From NCBI RefSeq assembly GCF_034314105.1, contig NZ_JAVIWJ010000001.1:312501-376500 (forward strand): a stretch of DNA of 64,000 nt. The letters run 5' to 3'. Origin of the DNA: Pseudomonas sp. AB6. Its GTDB lineage: Bacteria; Pseudomonadota; Gammaproteobacteria; Pseudomonadales; Pseudomonadaceae. A model generated the notes under the pieces. The model was not told the DNA's origin. It did no database searches and was given only the letters and a program-made list of their open reading frames with translations. This document shows, piece after piece, positions 37,908 through 47,339 of the stretch (within the stretch, counting starts at the first letter, position 1; each line of letters begins with the position of its first letter). The position numbers were made by a program, and so were the translations under genes.

Positions 37908-39332
37908 ATGCGCTACATCAGTACCCGCGGCCAAGCGCCCGCGCTGAATTTCGAAGACGTGCTGCTTACTGGCCTTGCCAGCGATGGCGGCCTGTATGTG
38001 CCGGAAAACCTGCCGCGCTTTACCCAGGAAGAAATCGCCTCTTGGGCGGGCCTGGCGTATCACGAGCTGGCTTTTCGGGTGATGCGGCCCTTTGTCAGCG
38101 GCAGCATTCCAGATGCCGATTTCAAAAAAATTCTTGAAGAAACCTATTCGTCGGGAGAAAACGGCGTGTTTGCCCACGGCGGTATTGCGCCTCTGCGCCC
38201 GCTGAACGGCAACGAGTGGGTGCTTGAACTGTTCCATGGTCCGACCCTGGCGTTCAAGGACTTCGCCCTGCAACTGCTCGGGCGTTTGCTCGACTACGTG
38301 CTAGCCAAGCGTGGCGAACGGGTGGTGATTCTCGGCGCGACCTCCGGCGATACCGGCTCTGCTGCTATCGAAGGCTGCCGTCGTTGCGACAACGTCGACA
38401 TTTTCATCCTGCACCCGAACAAACGGGTGTCTGAAGTTCAGCGTCGGCAGATGACCACCATTGCGGGCGAGAACATTCACAACATCGCCATCGAAGGTAA
38501 CTTCGATGACTGCCAGGAAATGGTCAAGGCCAGCTTTGCCGATCAGGGCTTCCTGAAGGGGACGCGCCTGGTGGCGGTCAACTCGATCAACTGGGCGCGG
38601 ATCATGGCCCAGATCGTCTACTACTTTCACGCAGCCTTGCAACTTGGTGGCCCGGCGCGGTCAGTGGCGTTCTCAGTCCCAACAGGTAATTTTGGCGACA
38701 TTTTCGCGGGTTATCTTGCGCGTAACATGGGCTTGCCGATCAGCCAACTGATCGTGGCTACCAACCGCAATGACATTCTTCACCGCTTTATGAGCGGCAA
38801 TCAGTACACCAAGGAAACCTTGCACGCGACGTTGTCGCCGTCCATGGACATCATGGTTTCGTCGAACTTTGAACGCTTGTTGTTCGATATGCATGGACGT
38901 AACGGCGCATCTATTGCGGGCTTGATGGATACGTTCAAGCAAAGTGGCGCCTTTAGCGTCGATGCAGAGCGCTGGACCGAAACCCGCAAACTGTTCGATT
39001 CGCTGGCAGTCAGCGATGAAGAGACCTGCGAAACCATCGCCGAGGTGTTTGCAAACACAGGCGAAGTGCTCGATCCGCACACGGCGATCGGTGTCAAAGC
39101 CGCTCGCGATTGTCGCCGAAGCCTGGACACCCCGATGGTCATTCTGGGGACCGCGCACCCGGTCAAATTCCCGGAAGCGGTCGATAAAGCTGGTGTAGGA
39201 AAAGCGCTCGAGCTACCTGCACATCTATCTGATCTTTTTGTTCGTGAAGAAAAGTACACCGTACTGCCAAATGACTTGAAAGCCGTACATGACTTCGTTG
39301 CTCAGCACGGTAATCGCGGAGCACCTCTTTAA
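37908..39332 (+). CDS. thrC: Threonine synthase
   Basis: PLP enzyme converting phosphohomoserine to threonine. The 474-aa protein has N-terminal Y-I-S-T-R-G, PLP-lysine region F-H-G-P-T-L-A-F-K-D-F, and G-A-T-S-G-D-T-G-S-A phosphate-binding loop, all in place. Start M-R-Y-I-S-T matches the family; the nine upstream codons are part of the repeat-containing spacer. A terminator follows. Confidence 0.96.
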   Translation: MRYISTRGQAPALNFEDVLLTGLASDGGLYVPENLPRFTQEEIASWAGLAYHELAFRVMRPFVSGSIPDADFKKILEETYSSGENGVFAHGGIAPLRPLNGNEWVLELFHGPTLAFKDFALQLLGRLLDYVLAKRGERVVILGATSGDTGSAAIEGCRRCDNVDIFILHPNKRVSEVQRRQMTTIAGENIHNIAIEGNFDDCQEMVKASFADQGFLKGTRLVAVNSINWARIMAQIVYYFHAALQLGGPARSVAFSVPTGNFGDIFAGYLARNMGLPISQLIVATNRNDILHRFMSGNQYTKETLHATLSPSMDIMVSSNFERLLFDMHGRNGASIAGLMDTFKQSGAFSVDAERWTETRKLFDSLAVSDEETCETIAEVFANTGEVLDPHTAIGVKAARDCRRSLDTPMVILGTAHPVKFPEAVDKAGVGKALELPAHLSDLFVREEKYTVLPNDLKAVHDFVAQHGNRGAPL

Positions 39333-39357
39333 CGGTATCGTCGTGTAACAACATAAG

Positions 39358-39382
39358 GCCTGCCGTTTGGCGGGCTTTTTTA
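39358..39382 (+). terminator. Rho-independent terminator after thrC
   Basis: GCCTGCC (39358-39364) pairs with GGCGGGC (39369-39375, one G-U) across GTTT, followed by six T, 25 bases after the thrC stop. Confidence 0.85.
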
Positions 39383-39449
39383 TTTCCGCGTGCCACACTC
39401 GTGAGGTATTGGATCCATATGGAATGGAATAGCGGTGAAGGAATTCAGC

Positions 39450-42400
39450 ATGCACCCTGCGGGTGCCCCTAATAGAATTATTTTGTACACAGCCCTTCTG
39501 TTTTGGCTGTTATGTCTAAGTCAAGTGGCGTTCGCAGCTAATAGCTTACCGTTCAGACTCGTCCCGCCCTTTGTCAACCTGACGCCGTTGTCACTCGACC
39601 CAAAAGACAGGCAGTGGTTGGATCAACGCCAGAAATTGCGTGTGGGCATCTCGATTGCTGACTACGAACCGATTGACATCACCAGTGACCGTAATCGCTA
39701 CCAAGGTATCAGCGCGGATTACCTGAGTCTGATTGGCAGTAAGCTTTCTGTCCCCATCCAGGTCGTCGGTTTCGCCCAGCGCAATGAAGCCGTTGAGGCG
39801 TTACGCAATGGCACTGTCGATATGCTCACGACGGCCAACGGCTTTGAGCGTGGGGTAAAAGCGCTTGAGTTTTCTGTTGATTACCTTCCAGACCGCTCAG
39901 TCATTGTTGGGCGAAGCAGTGACTTCACCCTGCCTTTAAAGTTGAAAGGCAAGAAAATCGTACTACTCGATGGTTACGCCGATGCTGAGGTAGTTCATCG
40001 GGTCTACCCGGCAAGTGAGGTGATTCTCGCTCCCAATCTGTTCAGTGCCCTTGAAGCACTGAGCCAAGGCGAGGTTGATGCCTTTATTGGTAACGAAGTC
40101 ATCGTGCGTGCCTACATGGCTTTGCGGCCCTATATGGGGTTGCAGATCAAATCCGAAAGTGCGTTGCCGCCTATTGGTTTTTCATTCGCTACCCGTAAGG
40201 AAGACGCCGCTCTGGTGGCGCTGATCAATCTTGCGCTGGCGAGTATCGATGATTCGGTTCGGCGCGAAGTGCTCGGACGTTGGACTACAGGTCTGGGATC
40301 GGACGTTGCCCGTCAGCGCATTAAGCTGAATACCGCTGAACAAGCCTGGATTCGAAAGCATCCCCAAGTCACGGTCGTGTCCGGGCAACATGCGCCGTAC
40401 CTTTACAAAGACTCAAACGGCCACTGGGTCGGCCTGAACGTGGACATGCTGGAGCGAATTTCACGCATGACGGGTTTGCAGTTTGTGCACAAAGAAGTGG
40501 CTTCTACCGAGGAAAGCATCAATTTGCTGCGAAGCGGTCAAGCCGATATGAGTACAACACTCGCCGAAAATAACGAACGCGAGCGATTTCTTGATTTCAC
40601 ATACTCGTTTGGAGGCAGCAACTGGGTGTTTGTTTCGCGTGAGAACGAGGCGTCACCCATTAGCCTCCAAACGTTATCGGGACGTGTCCTCGCGCTGCCC
40701 GCCCGGCATGCGTTGGAGGACTATATCCGCCGAAACTATTCAGGCATCCGGATCTACTCGGTCAACACTTACGAACAAGCGCGCAGGATGGTTGAAAACG
40801 GTCAGGCCGATGCCACGATCCAGAGCGAGGCTGGCGCTCATCTGCTTCCGCTCGCTACGCTGAAAATTGGCCGCACCGTTGAGGGTCAGTGGTCATCTGA
40901 TCGCTTCTCCGTAGTACGGACGCAACCCGAACTGCTCAGCATTCTGAATAAAGCCCTCGAAGAGTTTCCGGTGGCGGAAATGCGCGCGATTCGCATGAAA
41001 TGGTTGGGGGCAGTTGTCGTTCCGCCGCCGGTGTGGTTGCGAATTCCGGCTTGGGTCTACTGGGCTATGGCGGTCACACTTCTGTTCGGCCTGATCTCCC
41101 TGATCTGGAGCGGCCGTTTAAATGTGCAGATACAGCAGCGCCTCAAAGCCGAGGAACAACTCAACGATCAATTGGCATTCAAGCGGGCCTTGCTCGATGG
41201 TATTCCCAATCCGATCTACGTCCGTGACCTACGCGGTTGTTTGATTTCGTGTAACCGCAGCTACGAGGAAAGTTTTGGCATCAGCTTCGAGCAAATGAGC
41301 GGACGTCGCCTGATTGATGTCGAGTTAATCCCGAGCATAAGCGCCGAACAGATGCATGCCGACTACCTGAAATTGCTTGAAAACCAGCAACCGGTGTTTG
41401 CTGATCGGCGCATGGAACTGTTTGGTCGCTTGATTGATGCCTATCAATGGACCGTACCGTTCTATCGGGCTGACGGTCAATTACAGGGGTTATTAGGTGG
41501 CTGGATTGATATCACCGAGCGCAAACGACTGGAAGCTCAGCTCACTGAAGCACGGCAACTGGCTGAACAGGCTAATGAAGCCAAAAGCGTTTTTCTGACG
41601 ACCATGAGTCACGAAATTCGCACGCCGATGGGGGCGATCATTGGCTTGCTCGAACTCGAGCGCGAACTGATCTTGCAGCGCGGCGAAACACCGTCTCAAG
41701 GGCTGAATCTTGCCTGTCAGTCTGCCCATGAGCTGATCGAGCTGATTGGCGACAGTTTGGACTTGACCAAAATTGAAGCCGGCAGCATGCAATTGGCGTT
41801 GGCGGTGACTTCACTACGGCCGTTTTTTGATGGCATTTTTCGGTTGTTTAAGGTCAGTGCTCGTGAAAAGGGACTCGATGTGCGATTGGAGTTTGCCGAC
41901 CAGGCCGAGGGGGATTTTTGGGTCGACCCTCTGCGTCTGCGTCAAATCATGCACAACTTGCTGGGCAACGCCTTAAAGTTCACCCGAGAGGGGTCAGTGG
42001 TCGTGAGTGTCACGACCTCGGGCTTGCCGCAACGGCCGTGTCTGCGGGTCAGCGTAAAAGACAGTGGAGTAGGTATCGACATCGCGCAGCAATCTCAGCT
42101 GTTTCAGCCTTTCGCACAAGCCACCGACGATACGGCTGCCAAATACGGTGGGTCCGGCCTTGGTTTGAGTATCTGCAAGCAGTTGGTTGAGTTAATGGGA
42201 GGCCACGTCGGCCTCGAAAGTACCCCAGGCACAGGGACTTGCGTGACGGTTGAATTGCCCTTGGTCCGCGTGCTCATAGAGCATGATCGGGCCACCGAAA
42301 CGGATAAACATCTCGCCGCTAGCCGCTCAATTCGGATACTAATTGTTGATGACCTGTCGGCGAACCGACTGGTACTGAATCAGCAGTTAGAATTTCTCGG

Positions 42401-43040
42401 CCATGAGGTGGTATGTACCGGCGATGCAAGGTCAGCCCTTAAGCTTTGGCGACAAGAGACATTCGATGCGGTCTTTACCGACTGCAATATGCCGGTAATG
42501 AGTGGCTATGCGTTGGCCGAAAATATTCGATCGATTGAGATAGAGGAACAACGTCAGGCCTGTCCGATCATTGGTTATACCGCCAACGCCATGAGTGGGG
42601 AGCGTCAGCGCTGCGAACAGGCAGGCATGAGCCAACTATTGATCAAGCCAGTGTCGTTGAGCCGGCTGGCGCAAGTGCTAGCCGAGATTGCACCGATGCA
42701 GTCTTTTGACGTCGATACTCTGCGCAAAATGACCCAAGCCAACGACAAACAGATGCACCAACTGTTGTCAGAACTCTGGAAAAACCTGCAGCAGGAGGTG
42801 GAAGTGCTTGCGCCTGCCACCAAGACGCAGGACTGGAAGGCCCTGAGTGCCTCTGTGCACCGCTTAAAAGGTGTAGCGTGCCTTATCGATGCAGTTCCGT
42901 TGGCGAAGGCGTGTGCCAGTCTTGATGGTAGCGTAAGTCAACAGAACAACGCTTCGCTTGCCGTGCAATGGCAAACGTTGAGTTGCGCGATTGAGCAGTT
43001 GCGTGCGGATATCCAGCATCACCTGTCGCCTCCAGTTTAA
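39450..43040 (+). CDS. BvgS/RocS-like hybrid sensor histidine kinase
   Basis: A 1196-aa unorthodox hybrid kinase. Signal sequence, two periplasmic solute-binding (SBP_bac_3/Venus flytrap) domains (about 55-265 and 300-510), one membrane helix (about 535-555), PAS (about 575-690), HisKA with His721 in M-S-H-E-I-R-T-P, HATPase (N-L-L-G-N-A-L-K-F), receiver domain with Asp1011 in F-T-D-C-N-M-P, and C-terminal Hpt with His1137 in V-H-R-L-K-G. This matches RocS1/SadS, which control fimbriae and biofilm in P. aeruginosa. ATG at 39450 has AAGGA 8 bases before it; a GTG at 39435 is the alternative. The EAL gene follows. Confidence 0.9.
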   Translation: MHPAGAPNRIILYTALLFWLLCLSQVAFAANSLPFRLVPPFVNLTPLSLDPKDRQWLDQRQKLRVGISIADYEPIDITSDRNRYQGISADYLSLIGSKLSVPIQVVGFAQRNEAVEALRNGTVDMLTTANGFERGVKALEFSVDYLPDRSVIVGRSSDFTLPLKLKGKKIVLLDGYADAEVVHRVYPASEVILAPNLFSALEALSQGEVDAFIGNEVIVRAYMALRPYMGLQIKSESALPPIGFSFATRKEDAALVALINLALASIDDSVRREVLGRWTTGLGSDVARQRIKLNTAEQAWIRKHPQVTVVSGQHAPYLYKDSNGHWVGLNVDMLERISRMTGLQFVHKEVASTEESINLLRSGQADMSTTLAENNERERFLDFTYSFGGSNWVFVSRENEASPISLQTLSGRVLALPARHALEDYIRRNYSGIRIYSVNTYEQARRMVENGQADATIQSEAGAHLLPLATLKIGRTVEGQWSSDRFSVVRTQPELLSILNKALEEFPVAEMRAIRMKWLGAVVVPPPVWLRIPAWVYWAMAVTLLFGLISLIWSGRLNVQIQQRLKAEEQLNDQLAFKRALLDGIPNPIYVRDLRGCLISCNRSYEESFGISFEQMSGRRLIDVELIPSISAEQMHADYLKLLENQQPVFADRRMELFGRLIDAYQWTVPFYRADGQLQGLLGGWIDITERKRLEAQLTEARQLAEQANEAKSVFLTTMSHEIRTPMGAIIGLLELERELILQRGETPSQGLNLACQSAHELIELIGDSLDLTKIEAGSMQLALAVTSLRPFFDGIFRLFKVSAREKGLDVRLEFADQAEGDFWVDPLRLRQIMHNLLGNALKFTREGSVVVSVTTSGLPQRPCLRVSVKDSGVGIDIAQQSQLFQPFAQATDDTAAKYGGSGLGLSICKQLVELMGGHVGLESTPGTGTCVTVELPLVRVLIEHDRATETDKHLAASRSIRILIVDDLSANRLVLNQQLEFLGHEVVCTGDARSALKLWRQETFDAVFTDCNMPVMSGYALAENIRSIEIEEQRQACPIIGYTANAMSGERQRCEQAGMSQLLIKPVSLSRLAQVLAEIAPMQSFDVDTLRKMTQANDKQMHQLLSELWKNLQQEVEVLAPATKTQDWKALSASVHRLKGVACLIDAVPLAKACASLDGSVSQQNNASLAVQWQTLSCAIEQLRADIQHHLSPPV

Positions 43041-43125
43041 GACATGTCTTATTGGGAACAGATGCTGACCACTTTAAAGTGCAGAGACCGTTGGCTAAAA
43101 CTGCTCTGACCCGGGAGGCGAAATT

Positions 43126-44379
43126 GTGCGCTCACTTAATGTTTTGATACTTGAAGACAATGCATTTCAACTGATGGCGCTGCATCAAATGCTCAACGCA
43201 AATCAGGTGTTCAATGTCATGACGGCTCACAGCGTTGCCGATGCGCGGCAATCATTGGCTAATCGCGGCGATGTCGATATTGCTATCTGTGATTTGCAAA
43301 TGGAGGGTGCGGACGGGCTTGAGATGATTCGATACCTCGCCGAAGGTCAGCGCGCTCGCGCGATTATTATCCTTAGCAGCAGTGATAGAAGCGTACTCGA
43401 CGGTGCGGCCTATCTAGCGCGGCAGCAGGGCCTGTGGGTTTTAGGCAGCCTGCAAAAGCCAGCGTCCGCTGCGGTGCTTCGGGAATTGCTTGAGTCTTAC
43501 TGCGCCGGCCGACAGGCTCTCGAGCCGTTACCTCTGTCTCCCGGTTGCGCCGTGTTTTCTTTGGAAGAACTGCACCCACTGGCACCCGGTCAGCATATTC
43601 GCGAAATTGATGTTGTCGAGCAGTGGACCGCCCACTACCAACCTAAAGTCAATATTGGAGGTGATGTGCTTGGCGTCGAAGCGTTGATTCGCTGGCAGCA
43701 TCCCCGTCATGGCTTGTTGTCGCCGGGCAGCTTCATGGCCGCCGTCGAGGGCGCGGGGCTTATCGTGCCGCTGACCTGGCGCATGCTGGAGTTGGCATTG
43801 AAATTATCTTCCAAGGTTATGCAGGCAACTGGCAGCGCATTGCCCGTTGCGGTGAATATTGCGCCGACAATGCTTAATGAAGCAGATTTTGTTGAAGGCG
43901 TCGGCGCACTTCTGTCACGACTGGATTTACCGGCCAGCGTCCTCACTCTTGAGATCGTAGAAAGCTCAGCGCTGCAAACCACTACTGCGCAGCTGGAAGG
44001 CTTGCTGCGCTTGCGCATGCGGGGCTGCACTTTGTCTATCGATGACTTTGGGACGGGCGCATCGAATATTCAGCGCCTGCTTCAATTGCCGTTCTCGGAG
44101 TTGAAGATTCCGGCCGAATTCATACGCGGTATGGCCGAAGATGCCCGCAAAGCTGCCGTAGTAGCGGGTGCTTGGGTGATGGCGCGCGAGATGCAAATGG
44201 AGGTGGTAGTAGAGGGCGTGGAGACAACTTGTGATTATGAGGCGGTCAAGGCATTAGGCAGTCCGATGTTGCAGGGATATTTCGTGGCTAAACCTATGAA
44301 CGAGGCGGACCTGTTTGGCTGGATGGCAGGGCGTTCCAGCGTTGATTTCAAGTCAAACCATGTTCCTGCAAATAAATAA
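43126..44379 (+). CDS. Response regulator with EAL phosphodiesterase domain (RocR-like)
   Basis: A 417-aa REC-EAL protein. The receiver domain (1-125) has phospho-Asp56 in I-C-D-L-Q-M-E-G. The EAL domain (about 165-405) keeps E-A-L at 185-187, E-I-V-E-S, D-D-F-G-T-G, L-K-I and V-E-G-V-E, so it should hydrolyse cyclic-di-GMP. The usual Y-S after the D-D-F-G-T-G loop reads A-S. RocR/SadR of P. aeruginosa has the same layout and antagonises the DNA-binding regulator of its locus. GTG start with GGGAGG upstream. Its 3' end overlaps the convergent LuxR gene by 32 bases. Confidence 0.9.
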   Translation: MRSLNVLILEDNAFQLMALHQMLNANQVFNVMTAHSVADARQSLANRGDVDIAICDLQMEGADGLEMIRYLAEGQRARAIIILSSSDRSVLDGAAYLARQQGLWVLGSLQKPASAAVLRELLESYCAGRQALEPLPLSPGCAVFSLEELHPLAPGQHIREIDVVEQWTAHYQPKVNIGGDVLGVEALIRWQHPRHGLLSPGSFMAAVEGAGLIVPLTWRMLELALKLSSKVMQATGSALPVAVNIAPTMLNEADFVEGVGALLSRLDLPASVLTLEIVESSALQTTTAQLEGLLRLRMRGCTLSIDDFGTGASNIQRLLQLPFSELKIPAEFIRGMAEDARKAAVVAGAWVMAREMQMEVVVEGVETTCDYEAVKALGSPMLQGYFVAKPMNEADLFGWMAGRSSVDFKSNHVPANK

Positions 44380-45010
44380 ACAATCCTGCATCATTGCTAA
44401 GCCCTAATTTGCGCATGGCGCTAACTTTATGTGCGCTCACGGTTTGCTTGCTACGGTTGAATTGCGCGGCAATCTCACCTACTGAGCGACCGGCCCCTAG
44501 CAGGCGGAGTACCTCTGACTCCTTGGGGGATAGGTGTTGGTGGGCGATCAATGTGTCCGAGCCGTAATCACCCGCGTCAAGTAGCGTTTTGGCGACCGAT
44601 GCTGCGACGTACTGCTTGCCCTGATGGATGCACTCGATCGCAGCGGGCAATTCCCCCGCCAAGCTTGCCTTGCTCAAAAGTGCCGTGACACCTGACGCTA
44701 GGATCGAGCGAAACAGCCCTGCATTATTGAGCATAGTCACGACGACGATGGGCAGCTGTGGGTAATCACGGCGAACCCGCTCCAGCAATATTAGCCCGTC
44801 GTTCTGCAGATCGATGGGCATCATGAAGTCGGTCACCAGTACATCACAGGGGTGATTTTTCAGTGCCTCGGCGAGCGCCGATGGCGAGTCGGCCTCGGCG
44901 ATTACGGTGGCATGGCTGTGTTGCTCAAGCACAACCCTCAACCCGATCAGGAAAATAGGATGATCGTCGGCCAGAATGACGCGCAACGGTTTGGCAGGAG
45001 CGGCGTTCAA
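44348..45010 (-). CDS. LuxR-family response regulator (RocA/BvgA-like)
   Basis: A 220-aa NarL/FixJ-type regulator. Receiver domain with D15-D16 acidic pair and phospho-Asp61 in V-T-D-F-M-M-P, Thr/Lys switch region, and C-terminal LuxR helix-turn-helix (L-S-P-K-E-S-E-V-L-R-L-L, then N-R-S-K-Q-T-V-S-A-H-K). It likely receives phosphate from the Hpt of the neighbouring BvgS-like kinase and acts as the DNA-binding output. Converges on and overlaps the EAL gene, an arrangement that may allow mutual transcript interference. Confidence 0.9.
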   Translation of the reverse strand: MNAAPAKPLRVILADDHPIFLIGLRVVLEQHSHATVIAEADSPSALAEALKNHPCDVLVTDFMMPIDLQNDGLILLERVRRDYPQLPIVVVTMLNNAGLFRSILASGVTALLSKASLAGELPAAIECIHQGKQYVAASVAKTLLDAGDYGSDTLIAHQHLSPKESEVLRLLGAGRSVGEIAAQFNRSKQTVSAHKVSAMRKLGLSNDAGLFIYLQEHGLT

Positions 45011-45183
45011 TATTGGGGTCCTTTATAAGAGATATCTGCCGTTGTTTTTTATCTGTCATCTTCGGCAGGCATGCTCAGGCGTCTGGTAGCGGGCAATCAC
45101 CCCACTCAGGTGAGAAGAACTTTCTTATCGAACGGATGGTCATTGATAAGCACCTTGCATTCAAACTATCGAGTGGTGACCAG

Positions 45184-45480
45184 ATGGAAAATATCAGCTT
45201 ATTGCTGAGTGAAGCCCTGACACCTTATCAGGCAAACCTAGGGCCAGCGGGCGCGAATGGCGAACGCGTCGTCACTTTGAAAAATGCGGCAGGTGCGATT
45301 GTGATCGAACGCACACTTTGCGTGGCGCAGCTTTGTGACAAACGGCAACTGACGGATGTGGTAGATGGTTTTCACCGGGATCTACTGATTGCTGAAGGCC
45401 GAATTGAACCTTGCGTCATCGCAGCCATGCGGTATGCGACGTCTACTCAGGTTTTTACTTCGTTGCAGGCTTTTAATTGA
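45184..45480 (+). CDS. DUF3509-like small protein
   Basis: A 98-aa acidic protein whose pattern (L-x-x-Q-L-x-D-K-R-Q-L followed by H-R-D-L-L-I-A-E-G-R-I) resembles the Pseudomonas-specific DUF3509 family, function unknown. The open frame extends to 45013, but those codons overlap the promoter region of the divergent LuxR gene. M-E-N-I-S-L-L fits the family length, with M-V-I-D-K-H at 45136 as alternative. Ends before a strong terminator. Confidence 0.6.
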   Translation: MENISLLLSEALTPYQANLGPAGANGERVVTLKNAAGAIVIERTLCVAQLCDKRQLTDVVDGFHRDLLIAEGRIEPCVIAAMRYATSTQVFTSLQAFN

Positions 45481-45591
45481 TTGTTCGGGAACCTTTTTCG
45501 CGCCGAGTGCTCTGATTAATTACGGCAGGTTCAAGCATTGTGCTCCGGTGATTGATACCTGCCGTACTGGTCCTGAGGGATCACGGTTTGA

Positions 45592-45627
45592 CCCCGAGTG
45601 AGTGCCCCACTGCTCGGGGTTTCTTTT
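45592..45627 (+). terminator. Rho-independent terminator
   Basis: CCCCGAG (45592-45598) pairs with CTCGGGG (45613-45619) around a 14-base loop, followed by TTTCTTTT. It lies about 110 bases after the DUF3509-like gene and before the convergent binding-protein gene. Confidence 0.8.
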
Positions 45628-45675
45628 GCCTGAAATTCGGCCAATGAGTCTGATTACTGCAATGAACTCTTCCCC

Positions 45676-46557
45676 TTATGGGCTTTCAAAAAATGCCTTG
45701 GCGTCTTCCAGGTACGCCAAGCGGGAGTTGGGGTCTAGCCAGTCGGCGTAGAAGTCGATGAGTTTGGTTTGACGCAGGACACGCATTTTGCGGTTGATGA
45801 TTTCCATCGCGTCGCGCCCTTGGGCCGTATCCGAGCAACCAATATGGGCGAACTGATATTTAGCCGTGCCCATGATCGGGTAGAACTTTAGATCGTTGGG
45901 GTCGATATCTTCTTGCGTCGCAGTGAATCGTGCCTCAGGCCAGTAACTGATTAGCGCACGCAATCTGCCCACGCGCTCCATCTGTAACAGGCTGCCAACA
46001 GCGTCATTGCCATAGTGCCGGCTGACCGCATCATTTGGTGCGGCCTGAAGTATTTGATCGATCACCGGGCCATAGCTTCGCTCTGCGACGATTCCGAGCT
46101 TGATTTGTCGACTTGCCAACAGCGCCGCTAGATCGACCTGACCCTCCTTGATGAAAGGGCTTACGCGACTGAAGTCATTGCGGCGAATAACTATGCCATT
46201 ACTGATCACTGCGTAGGTTGGGATCGAAAATACAATGGTTTTAGCGCGCTCAGCGGTCCACAGCAATGTCGGGTCACAGGTAAACGACGGTTCATTGAGC
46301 ATCTGTATCCCCCGGGCCCGATTTACACGCAACATTAAATGATCGTACTCAGGCATCCCGGCTATCAGCAAAGGCATTAGCTTATCAATAGCGCCTTGTC
46401 CCTCTTGGGGGCCTGAGCTAATGGTCAAAGGGGGAAAGTCTCGCAGTAACCACATAATTGTGTCTTTCGCCATACCAATGCGCGGAACGCATAAAAGCAT
46501 CAGCGTGATCAGCGCTACCTTTGCGTAGGTTCTGGTAAGTAGTAAGCGGCAGGTCAT
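45676..46557 (-). CDS. Periplasmic substrate-binding-like protein (TIGR02285 family)
   Basis: A 293-aa exported protein with a signal peptide (hydrophobic segment about 13-28, then G-M-A-K). W-L-L-R-D-F-P-P-L near residue 36 is typical of the TIGR02285 group, related to SBP_bac_3 amino-acid-binding proteins but without transporter partners. No permease or ATPase lies nearby. It sits 3' to a sensor kinase that itself has two binding domains of the same broad fold, so it may present a ligand; this is speculative. Confidence 0.75.
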   Translation of the reverse strand: MTCRLLLTRTYAKVALITLMLLCVPRIGMAKDTIMWLLRDFPPLTISSGPQEGQGAIDKLMPLLIAGMPEYDHLMLRVNRARGIQMLNEPSFTCDPTLLWTAERAKTIVFSIPTYAVISNGIVIRRNDFSRVSPFIKEGQVDLAALLASRQIKLGIVAERSYGPVIDQILQAAPNDAVSRHYGNDAVGSLLQMERVGRLRALISYWPEARFTATQEDIDPNDLKFYPIMGTAKYQFAHIGCSDTAQGRDAMEIINRKMRVLRQTKLIDFYADWLDPNSRLAYLEDAKAFFESP

Positions 46558-46796
46558 TCGCTGAATCCATCCGCAAAAAAAAGTGACTGAATTATAGCGC
46601 CATTTAGCTGGCGTTCTGCTTGTCTAGATTAAAATCTGCCTTCCGCTGTCTCTGCCTCAAGCAACGTACCTGCTGAGTTCGGCCCAACGTGCTCATAAAT
46701 AGAGGTGTTCCCAAGTCGTTGGCAGACCATCGTCGTCGTTGAAGAGGTCAGCATCGGGTAGACTTGTCGCCTTTCCCCGTATCTAGAAGCCCGTCC

Positions 46797-47339
46797 ATGG
46801 CCCAGCCGTCCACGACCTACAAATTCGAACTCAACCTCACCGACCTTGATCGTGGCGTGTATGAGAGCGTTAAACAGACTATCGCCCGGCATCCTTCGGA
46901 AACCGAAGAACGTATGACCGTGCGTTTGCTCGCCTATGCCTTTTGGTACAACGAGCAGCTGTCATTTGGCCGTGGTCTGTCAGAAGTAGACGAACCAGCG
47001 CTGTGGGAAAAAAGCCTAGATGATCGCGTTTTACACTGGATCGAAGTCGGTCAGCCTGACGCAGATCGGTTGACCTGGTCTTCGCGGCGAACCGAACGCA
47101 CCAGTTTGCTGGCGTACGGCAGCTTGCGCGTTTGGGAAACCAAGGTGATTCCGGTTGCGAAAAACCTGAAAAACGTGAATATCGCCGCTGTGCCGCAAGA
47201 CATTCTGGAAGTACTGGCCAAGGACATGCCACGGGTTATCAAGTGGGACGTGATGATCAGCGAAGGGACTATTTTCGTCACCGACGACCGCGGCCAGCAC
47301 GAAGTTCAGCTGCAATGGCTTACCGGTGAGCGCGACTGA
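46797..47339 (+). CDS. yaeQ: YaeQ family protein
   Basis: A 180-aa protein of the YaeQ family, which has a PD-(D/E)XK nuclease-like fold. The N-terminal T-Y-K-F-E-L-N-L-T-D and central A-L-W-E-K-S-L-D-D-R-V-L-H-W-I-E-V-G-Q-P-D match well. E. coli YaeQ was linked to RfaH suppression, but function is unclear. Start M-A-Q-P-S is chosen by family length; 11 upstream codons are open. recJ follows 62 bases downstream. Confidence 0.9.
   Translation: MAQPSTTYKFELNLTDLDRGVYESVKQTIARHPSETEERMTVRLLAYAFWYNEQLSFGRGLSEVDEPALWEKSLDDRVLHWIEVGQPDADRLTWSSRRTERTSLLAYGSLRVWETKVIPVAKNLKNVNIAAVPQDILEVLAKDMPRVIKWDVMISEGTIFVTDDRGQHEVQLQWLTGERD

Follow-up and report, generated by a model that had tools for sequence, protein, structure and literature searches.

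Between the genes thrC and recJ of Pseudomonas sp. AB6, in the 64,000-nucleotide (nt) stretch analysed here (contig NZ_JAVIWJ010000001.1, positions 312,501 to 376,500, forward strand; hereafter the window, in whose numbering coordinates are given unless a locus or contig is named), lie three signalling genes that code for a hybrid sensor kinase, a response regulator with a receiver (REC) and an EAL domain, and a LuxR-family response regulator. All three genes, and a 32-nt tail-to-tail overlap of the last two, are present as an earlier examination of the letters alone (the sequence-only reading) had described them, and the domain sets of the three proteins are complete in Pfam, so that the unit is intact. 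The favoured interpretation, which is considered the probable one, is that of an intact multi-step phosphorelay with the LuxR protein as its output, in which the REC-EAL protein would be mainly a second receiver competing for phosphate and the overlap would not be a regulatory device. The more interesting outcome is a clade of degenerate EAL proteins together with remnants of kinase-less sensors and receivers, mostly with low ratios of nonsynonymous to synonymous substitution (dN/dS), at a single syntenic site. The features of the locus are as follows (aa, amino acids; ORF, open reading frame; VFT, Venus flytrap; TM, transmembrane; PDB, Protein Data Bank).

39355 to 39378, plus strand: hairpin resembling an intrinsic terminator, between thrC and the kinase gene (10 pairs, T-rich tail; the whole scan was no richer in such hairpins than shuffled sequences)
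39450 to 43040, plus strand: unorthodox hybrid sensor kinase of 1196 aa, VFT-VFT-TM-PAS-HisKA-HATPase-REC-Hpt (ORF, Pfam, PDB search; TM helix read from the sequence)
41193 to 41528, plus strand: PAS domain of the kinase, residues 582-693, within a few residues of whose end 26 of 36 cut kinases of relatives stop (Pfam)
41583 to 41783, plus strand: HisKA domain of the kinase, residues 712-778 (Pfam)
41925 to 42266, plus strand: HATPase_c domain of the kinase, residues 826-939 (Pfam)
42336 to 42680, plus strand: receiver domain D1 of the kinase, residues 963-1077 (Pfam)
42759 to 43004, plus strand: Hpt domain of the kinase, residues 1104-1185 (Pfam)
43126 to 44379, plus strand: REC-EAL response regulator of 417 aa, GTG start (ORF, Pfam, PDB search)
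43141 to 43482, plus strand: receiver domain of the REC-EAL protein, phospho-acceptor D56 (Pfam, alignment)
43627 to 44295, plus strand: EAL domain of the REC-EAL protein (Pfam, alignment to RocR)
44348 to 44379, no strand: tail-to-tail overlap of the EAL and LuxR genes, 32 nt (ORF coordinates, locus comparison)
44348 to 45010, minus strand: RcsB-like LuxR-family response regulator of 220 aa, TTG start (ORF, Pfam, PDB search, tree)

The kinase frame starts with the ATG at 39450, and an in-frame GTG also occurs at 39435. Above the Pfam cut-offs, the kinase matches SBP_bac_3 (two stretches), PAS, HisKA, HATPase_c, Response_reg and Hpt, the REC-EAL protein Response_reg and EAL, and the LuxR protein Response_reg and GerE. 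The best solved relatives in a PDB search are RocR for the EAL protein (5e-62), RcsB for the LuxR protein and the periplasmic part of BvgS for the kinase (E 6e-63); judged by its sequence, the kinase is an unorthodox one, apparently of the BvgS/EvgS/RocS type. The unit is flanked by hom-thrC on one side and by DUF3509-yaeQ-recJ on the other (homoserine dehydrogenase, thrC and recJ identified by NCBIfam, DUF3509 and YaeQ by Pfam), a position referred to below as the thrC slot.

The clade to which the EAL protein belongs was read from the search as present in 43 of 249 sampled genomes of the genus, and among 119 genomes drawn from the family only the window genome itself passes E 1e-75. An EAL gene is present in 42 thrC slots, of which 38 also have LuxR and 39 kinase sequence, and the order thrC, kinase (plus strand), EAL (plus), LuxR (minus) is kept in every slot with LuxR (38/38, or 38 of the 42 EAL slots). 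The EAL gene stands alone in L051, L054 and L056, and L073 has a cut kinase without LuxR; among the 38, damage is seen in L058 (EAL in two frames), L067 (an inner stop in LuxR) and L084 (a shorter kinase ORF). One locus, L061, which comes from the same genome as L040, was dropped from all counts. Clade members also occur outside the slot, namely the EAL gene of genome G232 and a second copy in G089, and the neighbours of such genes at L062 and L066 are other Roc-like or kinase/LuxR genes, which would suit a change of partners by the REC-EAL protein.

The EAL domain is degenerate throughout the clade. Residue D318 (RocR numbering, as for the other EAL residues) is replaced in all 44 clade sequences (Pro in 36, Ala in 6, Thr in 2; L112_728m was dropped from this alignment), as is the loop-6 Tyr301 (Gly in 20, Ala in 17, Val in 4, Asp in 3), and D295 and the catalytic Glu E352 are each lost in 22 of the 44, the two losses coinciding in a 20-row clade plus L056 and L054. 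D318, D295 and E352 are present in all comparison rows (7 RocR, 3 Pvr-like and 12 other RocR-type proteins), and position 301 is Tyr in 7/7 RocR and 3/3 Pvr-like rows; the other 12 have 4 Tyr and 8 Phe there. The receiver D56 is kept in 43 of the 44 clade proteins, the remaining row being a gap. The window protein retains E175, N233, E265, E268, D295, D296, K316, E352, E355 and Q372, has Pro at D318 and Ala at Y301, and also differs from RocR at loop-6 positions 299 and 303-305. A predicted structure of this domain, made from a three-sequence alignment (window, L039, L040), had a mean pLDDT (predicted local distance difference test) of 57.9 and was not used.

In the available part of PMC11537037, 13 EAL signature positions are listed and BvgR is placed in class III (inactive); D318 would correspond to one of the substrate-contacting Asp residues of that list. 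The available part of PMC12900916 treats loss of the EGVE catalytic residue as inactivating and other deviations as uncertain. From the residue pattern, the EAL domain is probably dead in half of the clade, and the phosphodiesterase activity of the window copy is uncertain; since the family is degenerate, the label ‘cyclic di-GMP (c-di-GMP)-linked’, which the sequence-only reading had attached to the unit, is uncertain as well. The domains that have lost E352 nevertheless stay under purifying selection and are about as constrained as the possibly live ones, with dN/dS (Nei-Gojobori, for chosen pairs rather than all pairs) of 0.03-0.20 in 12 E352-lost pairs, 0.08-0.21 in 9 E352-kept pairs and 0.28 in the sole EAL-only pair. 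The genome of Pseudomonas sp. AB6 has 25 EAL matches.

Other genomes of the genus hold reduced versions of the unit at the same site. In P. batumici (L041/L175) the EAL domain is gone, and the kinase, LuxR and a 143-aa receiver are retained; in P. guariconensis, P. cremoricolorata and P. entomophila the slot contains only a receiver-like protein of 144-164 aa, which by eye lacks the acidic pair and the Lys, one such protein scoring 27.4 bits against a cut-off of 30.2 when scanned. More systematically, 60 slots were examined from the 207 genomes without an EAL match in the slot; they come from among the best thrC matches, so that the counts are not genus frequencies. They comprise 26 slots with a cut kinase alone, 8 with a cut kinase and a receiver, 2 with a cut kinase and LuxR, 12 with a receiver alone, 11 in which nothing was recognised, and P. 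batumici. All 36 cut kinases end before the HATPase domain, most often (26) where PAS ends, their matches stopping at window-kinase residues 687-698 (26 cases), 708-731 (7) or 766-792, that is, into HisKA (3). A search of the examined slots for the C-terminal part of the kinase recovered all of it only in L175; L149 and L152 have HisKA-like fragments, L148 gave a weak, distant match, and the two cut kinases scanned with Pfam show only SBP_bac_3 and PAS families above cut-off. Five cut-kinase matches contain a stop codon, near the end in L149, L153, L159 and L182 and mid-gene in L185. Separately, L150 and L151 have a cut kinase with a convergent, diverged LuxR gene (43-44%), and no kinase core or EAL gene was found in either slot.

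In a quick-search tree of the VFT2-TM-PAS region, built from 40 full, 36 cut and 18 Roc sequences (L061, L062, L066, L073 and L113-L116 being left out), the cut state requires 6 changes, 3 of which are forced by starred branches. As regain of the kinase core, EAL and LuxR is implausible, these changes are read as repeated losses, and on this sequence evidence the kinase was probably cut several times. For the same part of the protein, dN/dS is 0.05-0.27 in 13 cut-sensor pairs and 0.04-0.11 in 8 full-kinase pairs, two cut-sensor pairs (0.24 and 0.27) being looser than any full-kinase pair, and that of stand-alone receivers is 0.04-0.35 in the 8 usable of 9 pairs; a recJ control pair (L170/L202, 0.512) was excluded, as unlike genes had been compared. 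Sensor and receiver would thus have roles separable from kinase and EAL activity. Somewhat tentatively, the thrC-recJ slot may be regarded as a natural deletion series in which the ends of the relay outlast its middle: the VFT-TM-PAS sensor would have been cut repeatedly from the kinase core, usually at the end of PAS, and would persist as a membrane sensor that lacks a kinase and has an independent function, and the receiver would persist on its own without the EAL domain, often without its phosphorylation residues. A smaller precedent has been described, in that loss of a rocS3 at the roc3 locus was inferred from leftover H1 or Hpt fragments (PMC12051241).

The overlap at 44348-44379, whose coordinates are confirmed, measures 32 nt with both stop codons counted. 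In a survey of 464 kb of the same genome, the median gap of 50 convergent pairs is +74 nt, and two pairs, that of EAL and LuxR included, overlap by at least 30 nt, which makes the overlap unusual, yet not unique; a crude home-made gene caller that allows only limited overlaps was used, and a false gene may underlie the second long overlap (L139). Among 40 loci with a convergent LuxR gene (the window included, one genome's duplicate omitted, the REC-only gene of P. batumici included), the two genes are convergent in every case, overlap in 26 and are separated by 6-87 nt in 14. Twelve loci share an overlap length of 32 nt; the other overlaps measure 28 nt (5 loci), 34 or 36 nt (2), 77 nt (2), 183 nt (1) and 4 or 8 nt (4). 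The C-terminal tail of LuxR (FIY-L/V-QEHGL-like) is alike whether or not an overlap exists. Read antisense, this tail gives its first stop at 32 nt (26/40) or 77 nt (12/40) in one frame and at 28 nt (22/40) or 4 nt (14/40) in another; the EAL frame stops where it does because conserved LuxR codons create antisense stops once the frame runs in.

Selection on the overlap was sought in synonymous differences and on trees. The overlapped LuxR codons show no added constraint, with a synonymous difference of 0.477 against 0.472 upstream (21 loci). Where no overlap exists (14 loci), the LuxR tail is more uniform than the upstream codons (0.233 vs 0.389), and in the 4 loci with an overlap of 4-8 nt it is less uniform (0.630 vs 0.357, few comparisons). 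On the LuxR tree of 37 rows (L039, L067 and other incomplete LuxR rows being left out of the 40 loci), an overlap of at least 28 nt needs 7 changes and one of exactly 32 nt needs 6. With equal synonymous difference in overlapped and upstream codons and such changes on the tree, conservation of the overlap by selection was rejected; no sign of selection for overlapping transcripts was found in these sequences, and the overlap looks incidental.

Phylogenetically, the three proteins keep apart from those of the Roc system. All trees are midpoint-rooted; those of the kinase and of the sensor part come from quick searches and have long branches. The EAL proteins form a 44-row clade (98/97), separate from RocR and the Pvr-like proteins, and the LuxR proteins a 37-row clade (96/98) on the RcsB side, with the RocA rows across a 100/100 branch and E. 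coli RcsB and EvgA on long branches; against the curated RcsB family the window LuxR scores 165 bits, below the cut-off of 235. The kinases form a clade of 41 rows (100), whose sister group is made up of EvgS and the Roc kinases, in a tree with long outgroup branches from which BvgS is absent, and in the sensor tree the Roc rows are one separate clade (100). Hence the EAL protein lies outside the RocR clade, LuxR outside the RocA clade and the kinase outside the RocS clade; the EAL and kinase clades are also apart from the loci L113-L115, which have two sensor kinases and are, by our own reading of their layout, Pvr-like. The authentic roc1 region of P. aeruginosa was located in CP109682.1 (L117), with rocA1 divergent from rocR-rocS1, and roc1-like loci (RocR 66-68%, RocA1 71-74%) occur in genomes G015 and G089 in addition to the thrC-recJ locus. 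Since both systems are present there, the thrC-recJ unit and Roc1 are paralogous, and identification of the unit as a Roc1 orthologue was rejected.

The sequence-only reading had called the unit Roc/Sad-like and had named a kinase outside the RocS/BvgS clade as a finding that would refute it. The label is apt as far as the three-component layout goes (an unorthodox VFT kinase, REC-EAL and LuxR); it does not extend to Roc/Sad proper, given the separate clades, a LuxR protein that groups with RcsB and not RocA, the different gene order, and the roc1 orthologues carried by two relatives as well. As for the kinase, the quick tree supports a place in the EvgS/RocS superclade, but not inside the RocS clade, and BvgS was compared by PDB search alone.

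In the mechanism envisaged, the signal perceived by the kinase is probably a small ligand, sensed by the two Venus-flytrap domains in the periplasm, and phosphate would pass along H1-D1-H2 and then to the receivers of the RcsB-like LuxR protein and the REC-EAL protein. LuxR would be the transcriptional output, with targets elsewhere, and REC-EAL a second receiver that competes with it for Hpt phosphate; the window EAL domain would be at most a weak phosphodiesterase, and that of half of its relatives is probably non-catalytic. The 32-nt overlap would have arisen as the EAL frame ran into the LuxR tail, ending where a conserved LuxR Tyr codon gives an antisense stop. Action of REC-EAL mainly via its receiver is favoured because the EAL domain is degenerate clade-wide, probably dead in half of the clade and deleted once, with D56 all but universal. 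The RocR receiver is reported to bind the Hpt domains of RocS1 and RocS2, RocR being a negative regulator that opposes cup output (PMC3083521), PvrR to oppose RcsB (PMC2696094), and PvrS and RcsC to modulate RcsB (PMC3842833), in the available part of each paper. RocR3, in which one essential catalytic residue and loop-6 residues are changed and which is predicted to be enzyme-compromised, nonetheless reduced the expression of cupB and cupC on overproduction (PMC12051241). Several points weigh against the reading: (i) the window EAL keeps ten catalytic-site residues and so may be an active phosphodiesterase, (ii) the competition for phosphate is inferred, (iii) a simple hairpin scan of both strands at the EAL/LuxR junction found no terminator-like hairpin, so that transcripts may overlap, and (iv) the 32-nt overlap is common to distant clades, for which ancestry and loss could also account.

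The first of these points leads to the main alternative, that the window EAL is an active phosphodiesterase, with a single kinase driving a LuxR activator together with an antagonist that lowers c-di-GMP, the arrangement reported for RocA1/RocR and RcsB/PvrR. Besides the ten retained residues, it can draw on RocR being the best solved relative and on the scheme in the available part of PMC12900916, by which only loss of the EGVE residue would count as inactive. The absence of D318 and the loop-6 Tyr from 44/44 proteins, the loss of the catalytic Glu in half of the clade with no visible relaxation of selection, and the deletion of the whole domain in P. batumici argue the other way, and this alternative is held to be rather unlikely. 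If instead the kinase, EAL and LuxR genes were simply decaying without function, the window being a copy not yet decayed, one would point to the many reduced or empty slots, the broken members (L058, L067, L185), the parts missing in L073, L051, L054 and L056, the 2 of 13 cut-sensor pairs that are less constrained than all 8 full-kinase pairs, and the roc3 locus, where a putative rocS3 is described as eroded (PMC12051241). Plain decay is nevertheless very unlikely, considering ORFs that are mostly intact, dN/dS values that lie at 0.03-0.35 for nearly every computed pair, whether full, cut or stand-alone, and a REC phospho-site that has one gap and no substitution in 44 rows.

The sequence-only reading had further proposed that the overlap couples the two outputs of the kinase by antisense, the complementary 3′ ends linking EAL and LuxR expression. 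The overlap is real, with no terminator-like hairpin found inside it by the scan, and every one of the 40 loci has the two genes convergent, with an overlap in 26 and a gap of no more than 87 nt in the remainder. However, the proposal finds no support in the comparison: relatives lack the overlap in 14/40 loci, the LuxR tree needs 7 changes for it, LuxR codons dictate such lengths as 4, 28, 32 and 77 nt, and overlapped codons differ synonymously as much as those upstream (0.477 vs 0.472). Antisense coupling is therefore regarded as highly improbable.

Should these readings of the relay and of the deletion series hold, one chromosomal site would separate the parts of a relay, from the whole relay through a probably dead EAL, no EAL domain and a kinase-less sensor to a receiver only. 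The role of a VFT-PAS sensor without a transmitter would become directly testable, as would the question of whether REC-EAL antagonism needs c-di-GMP hydrolysis or the receiver alone. The overlap also advises caution against reading short convergent overlaps as antisense devices, as here a conserved protein tail sets the overlap length.

As to the wider genome, the sequence-only reading had noted no fimbrial genes nearby, which holds for ushers (PF00577), the one family checked: the genome has a single match, outside the window and about 110 kb upstream of the three genes. It falls within a chaperone-usher-like cluster (L127, contig C1 at about 235-241 kb), a candidate target of LuxR. The same genome has a second Roc-like locus (L126 9012-14051, C1 at about 1.683-1.688 Mb) with RocA-like (55%) and RocS-like (43%) proteins beside a stand-alone 138-aa receiver without EAL, and cross-talk between the two systems is possible. 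Next to the thrC-recJ unit, a gene for a TIGR02285-family periplasmic binding protein (45676-46557) adjoins the system in most slots, including reduced and empty ones; being present even without the system, it is probably a neighbour and not a part. Rfam at gathering scores returned nothing in 39000-47000. A strongly conserved element of the type GAGCATGC-N9-ATGACAGA lies on the LuxR strand upstream of DUF3509, in 45011-45183 and in the same interval of L040-L089. Its distance is 57-191 nt to DUF3509, against -3 to 522 nt to LuxR, and it is retained in loci without LuxR (L051, L054, L056, L073); on account of this steadier spacing and its survival of LuxR loss, the element was rejected as a LuxR site and assigned to DUF3509.

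No description of the thrC-recJ locus was found in the openly licensed literature, although one may be in print elsewhere, and among titles of that literature on degenerate EAL or phosphate sinks, kinase-less sensors and DUF3509 none concerned the locus. Of the known systems, E. coli offers EvgS, which branches with the Roc kinases as sister to the thrC-recJ kinase clade, and RcsB, to which the thrC-recJ LuxR proteins are near in the PDB search and tree; no REC-EAL gene is annotated adjoining evgS/evgA or rcsB in the E. coli stretches fetched. The Bordetella bvg gene arrangement, in which BvgA is the LuxR-type regulator, is a further point of reference. BvgAS-BvgR combines the BvgS kinase with a LuxR regulator and an EAL protein, BvgR, that has lost catalytic residues (class III in the available part of PMC11537037). 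The thrC-recJ kinase may be of the BvgS type, the periplasmic part of BvgS being its best PDB match; BvgR is described as an EAL-domain protein, and E352 is gone in 22/44 of the thrC-recJ clade and kept in the window copy. PvrSR/RcsCB of P. aeruginosa PAPI-1 likewise has an RcsB-like LuxR with a REC-EAL partner opposing it (available part of PMC2696094), but with two sensors and with PvrR described as a phosphodiesterase (available part of PMC3842833), whereas the thrC-recJ unit has a single kinase and a different gene order, and its EAL protein belongs to a degenerate clade. Roc1 (RocS1-RocR-RocA1) shares with the unit a VFT-VFT-TM-PAS-H1-D1-H2 kinase with adjoining REC-EAL and LuxR regulators. 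There, however, rocA1 is divergent from rocR-rocS1 (a layout also given in PMC12051241), whereas here kinase and EAL genes face a convergent LuxR gene, all three proteins fall in clades of their own, LuxR is RcsB-like and the EAL protein is without D318 and the loop-6 Tyr.

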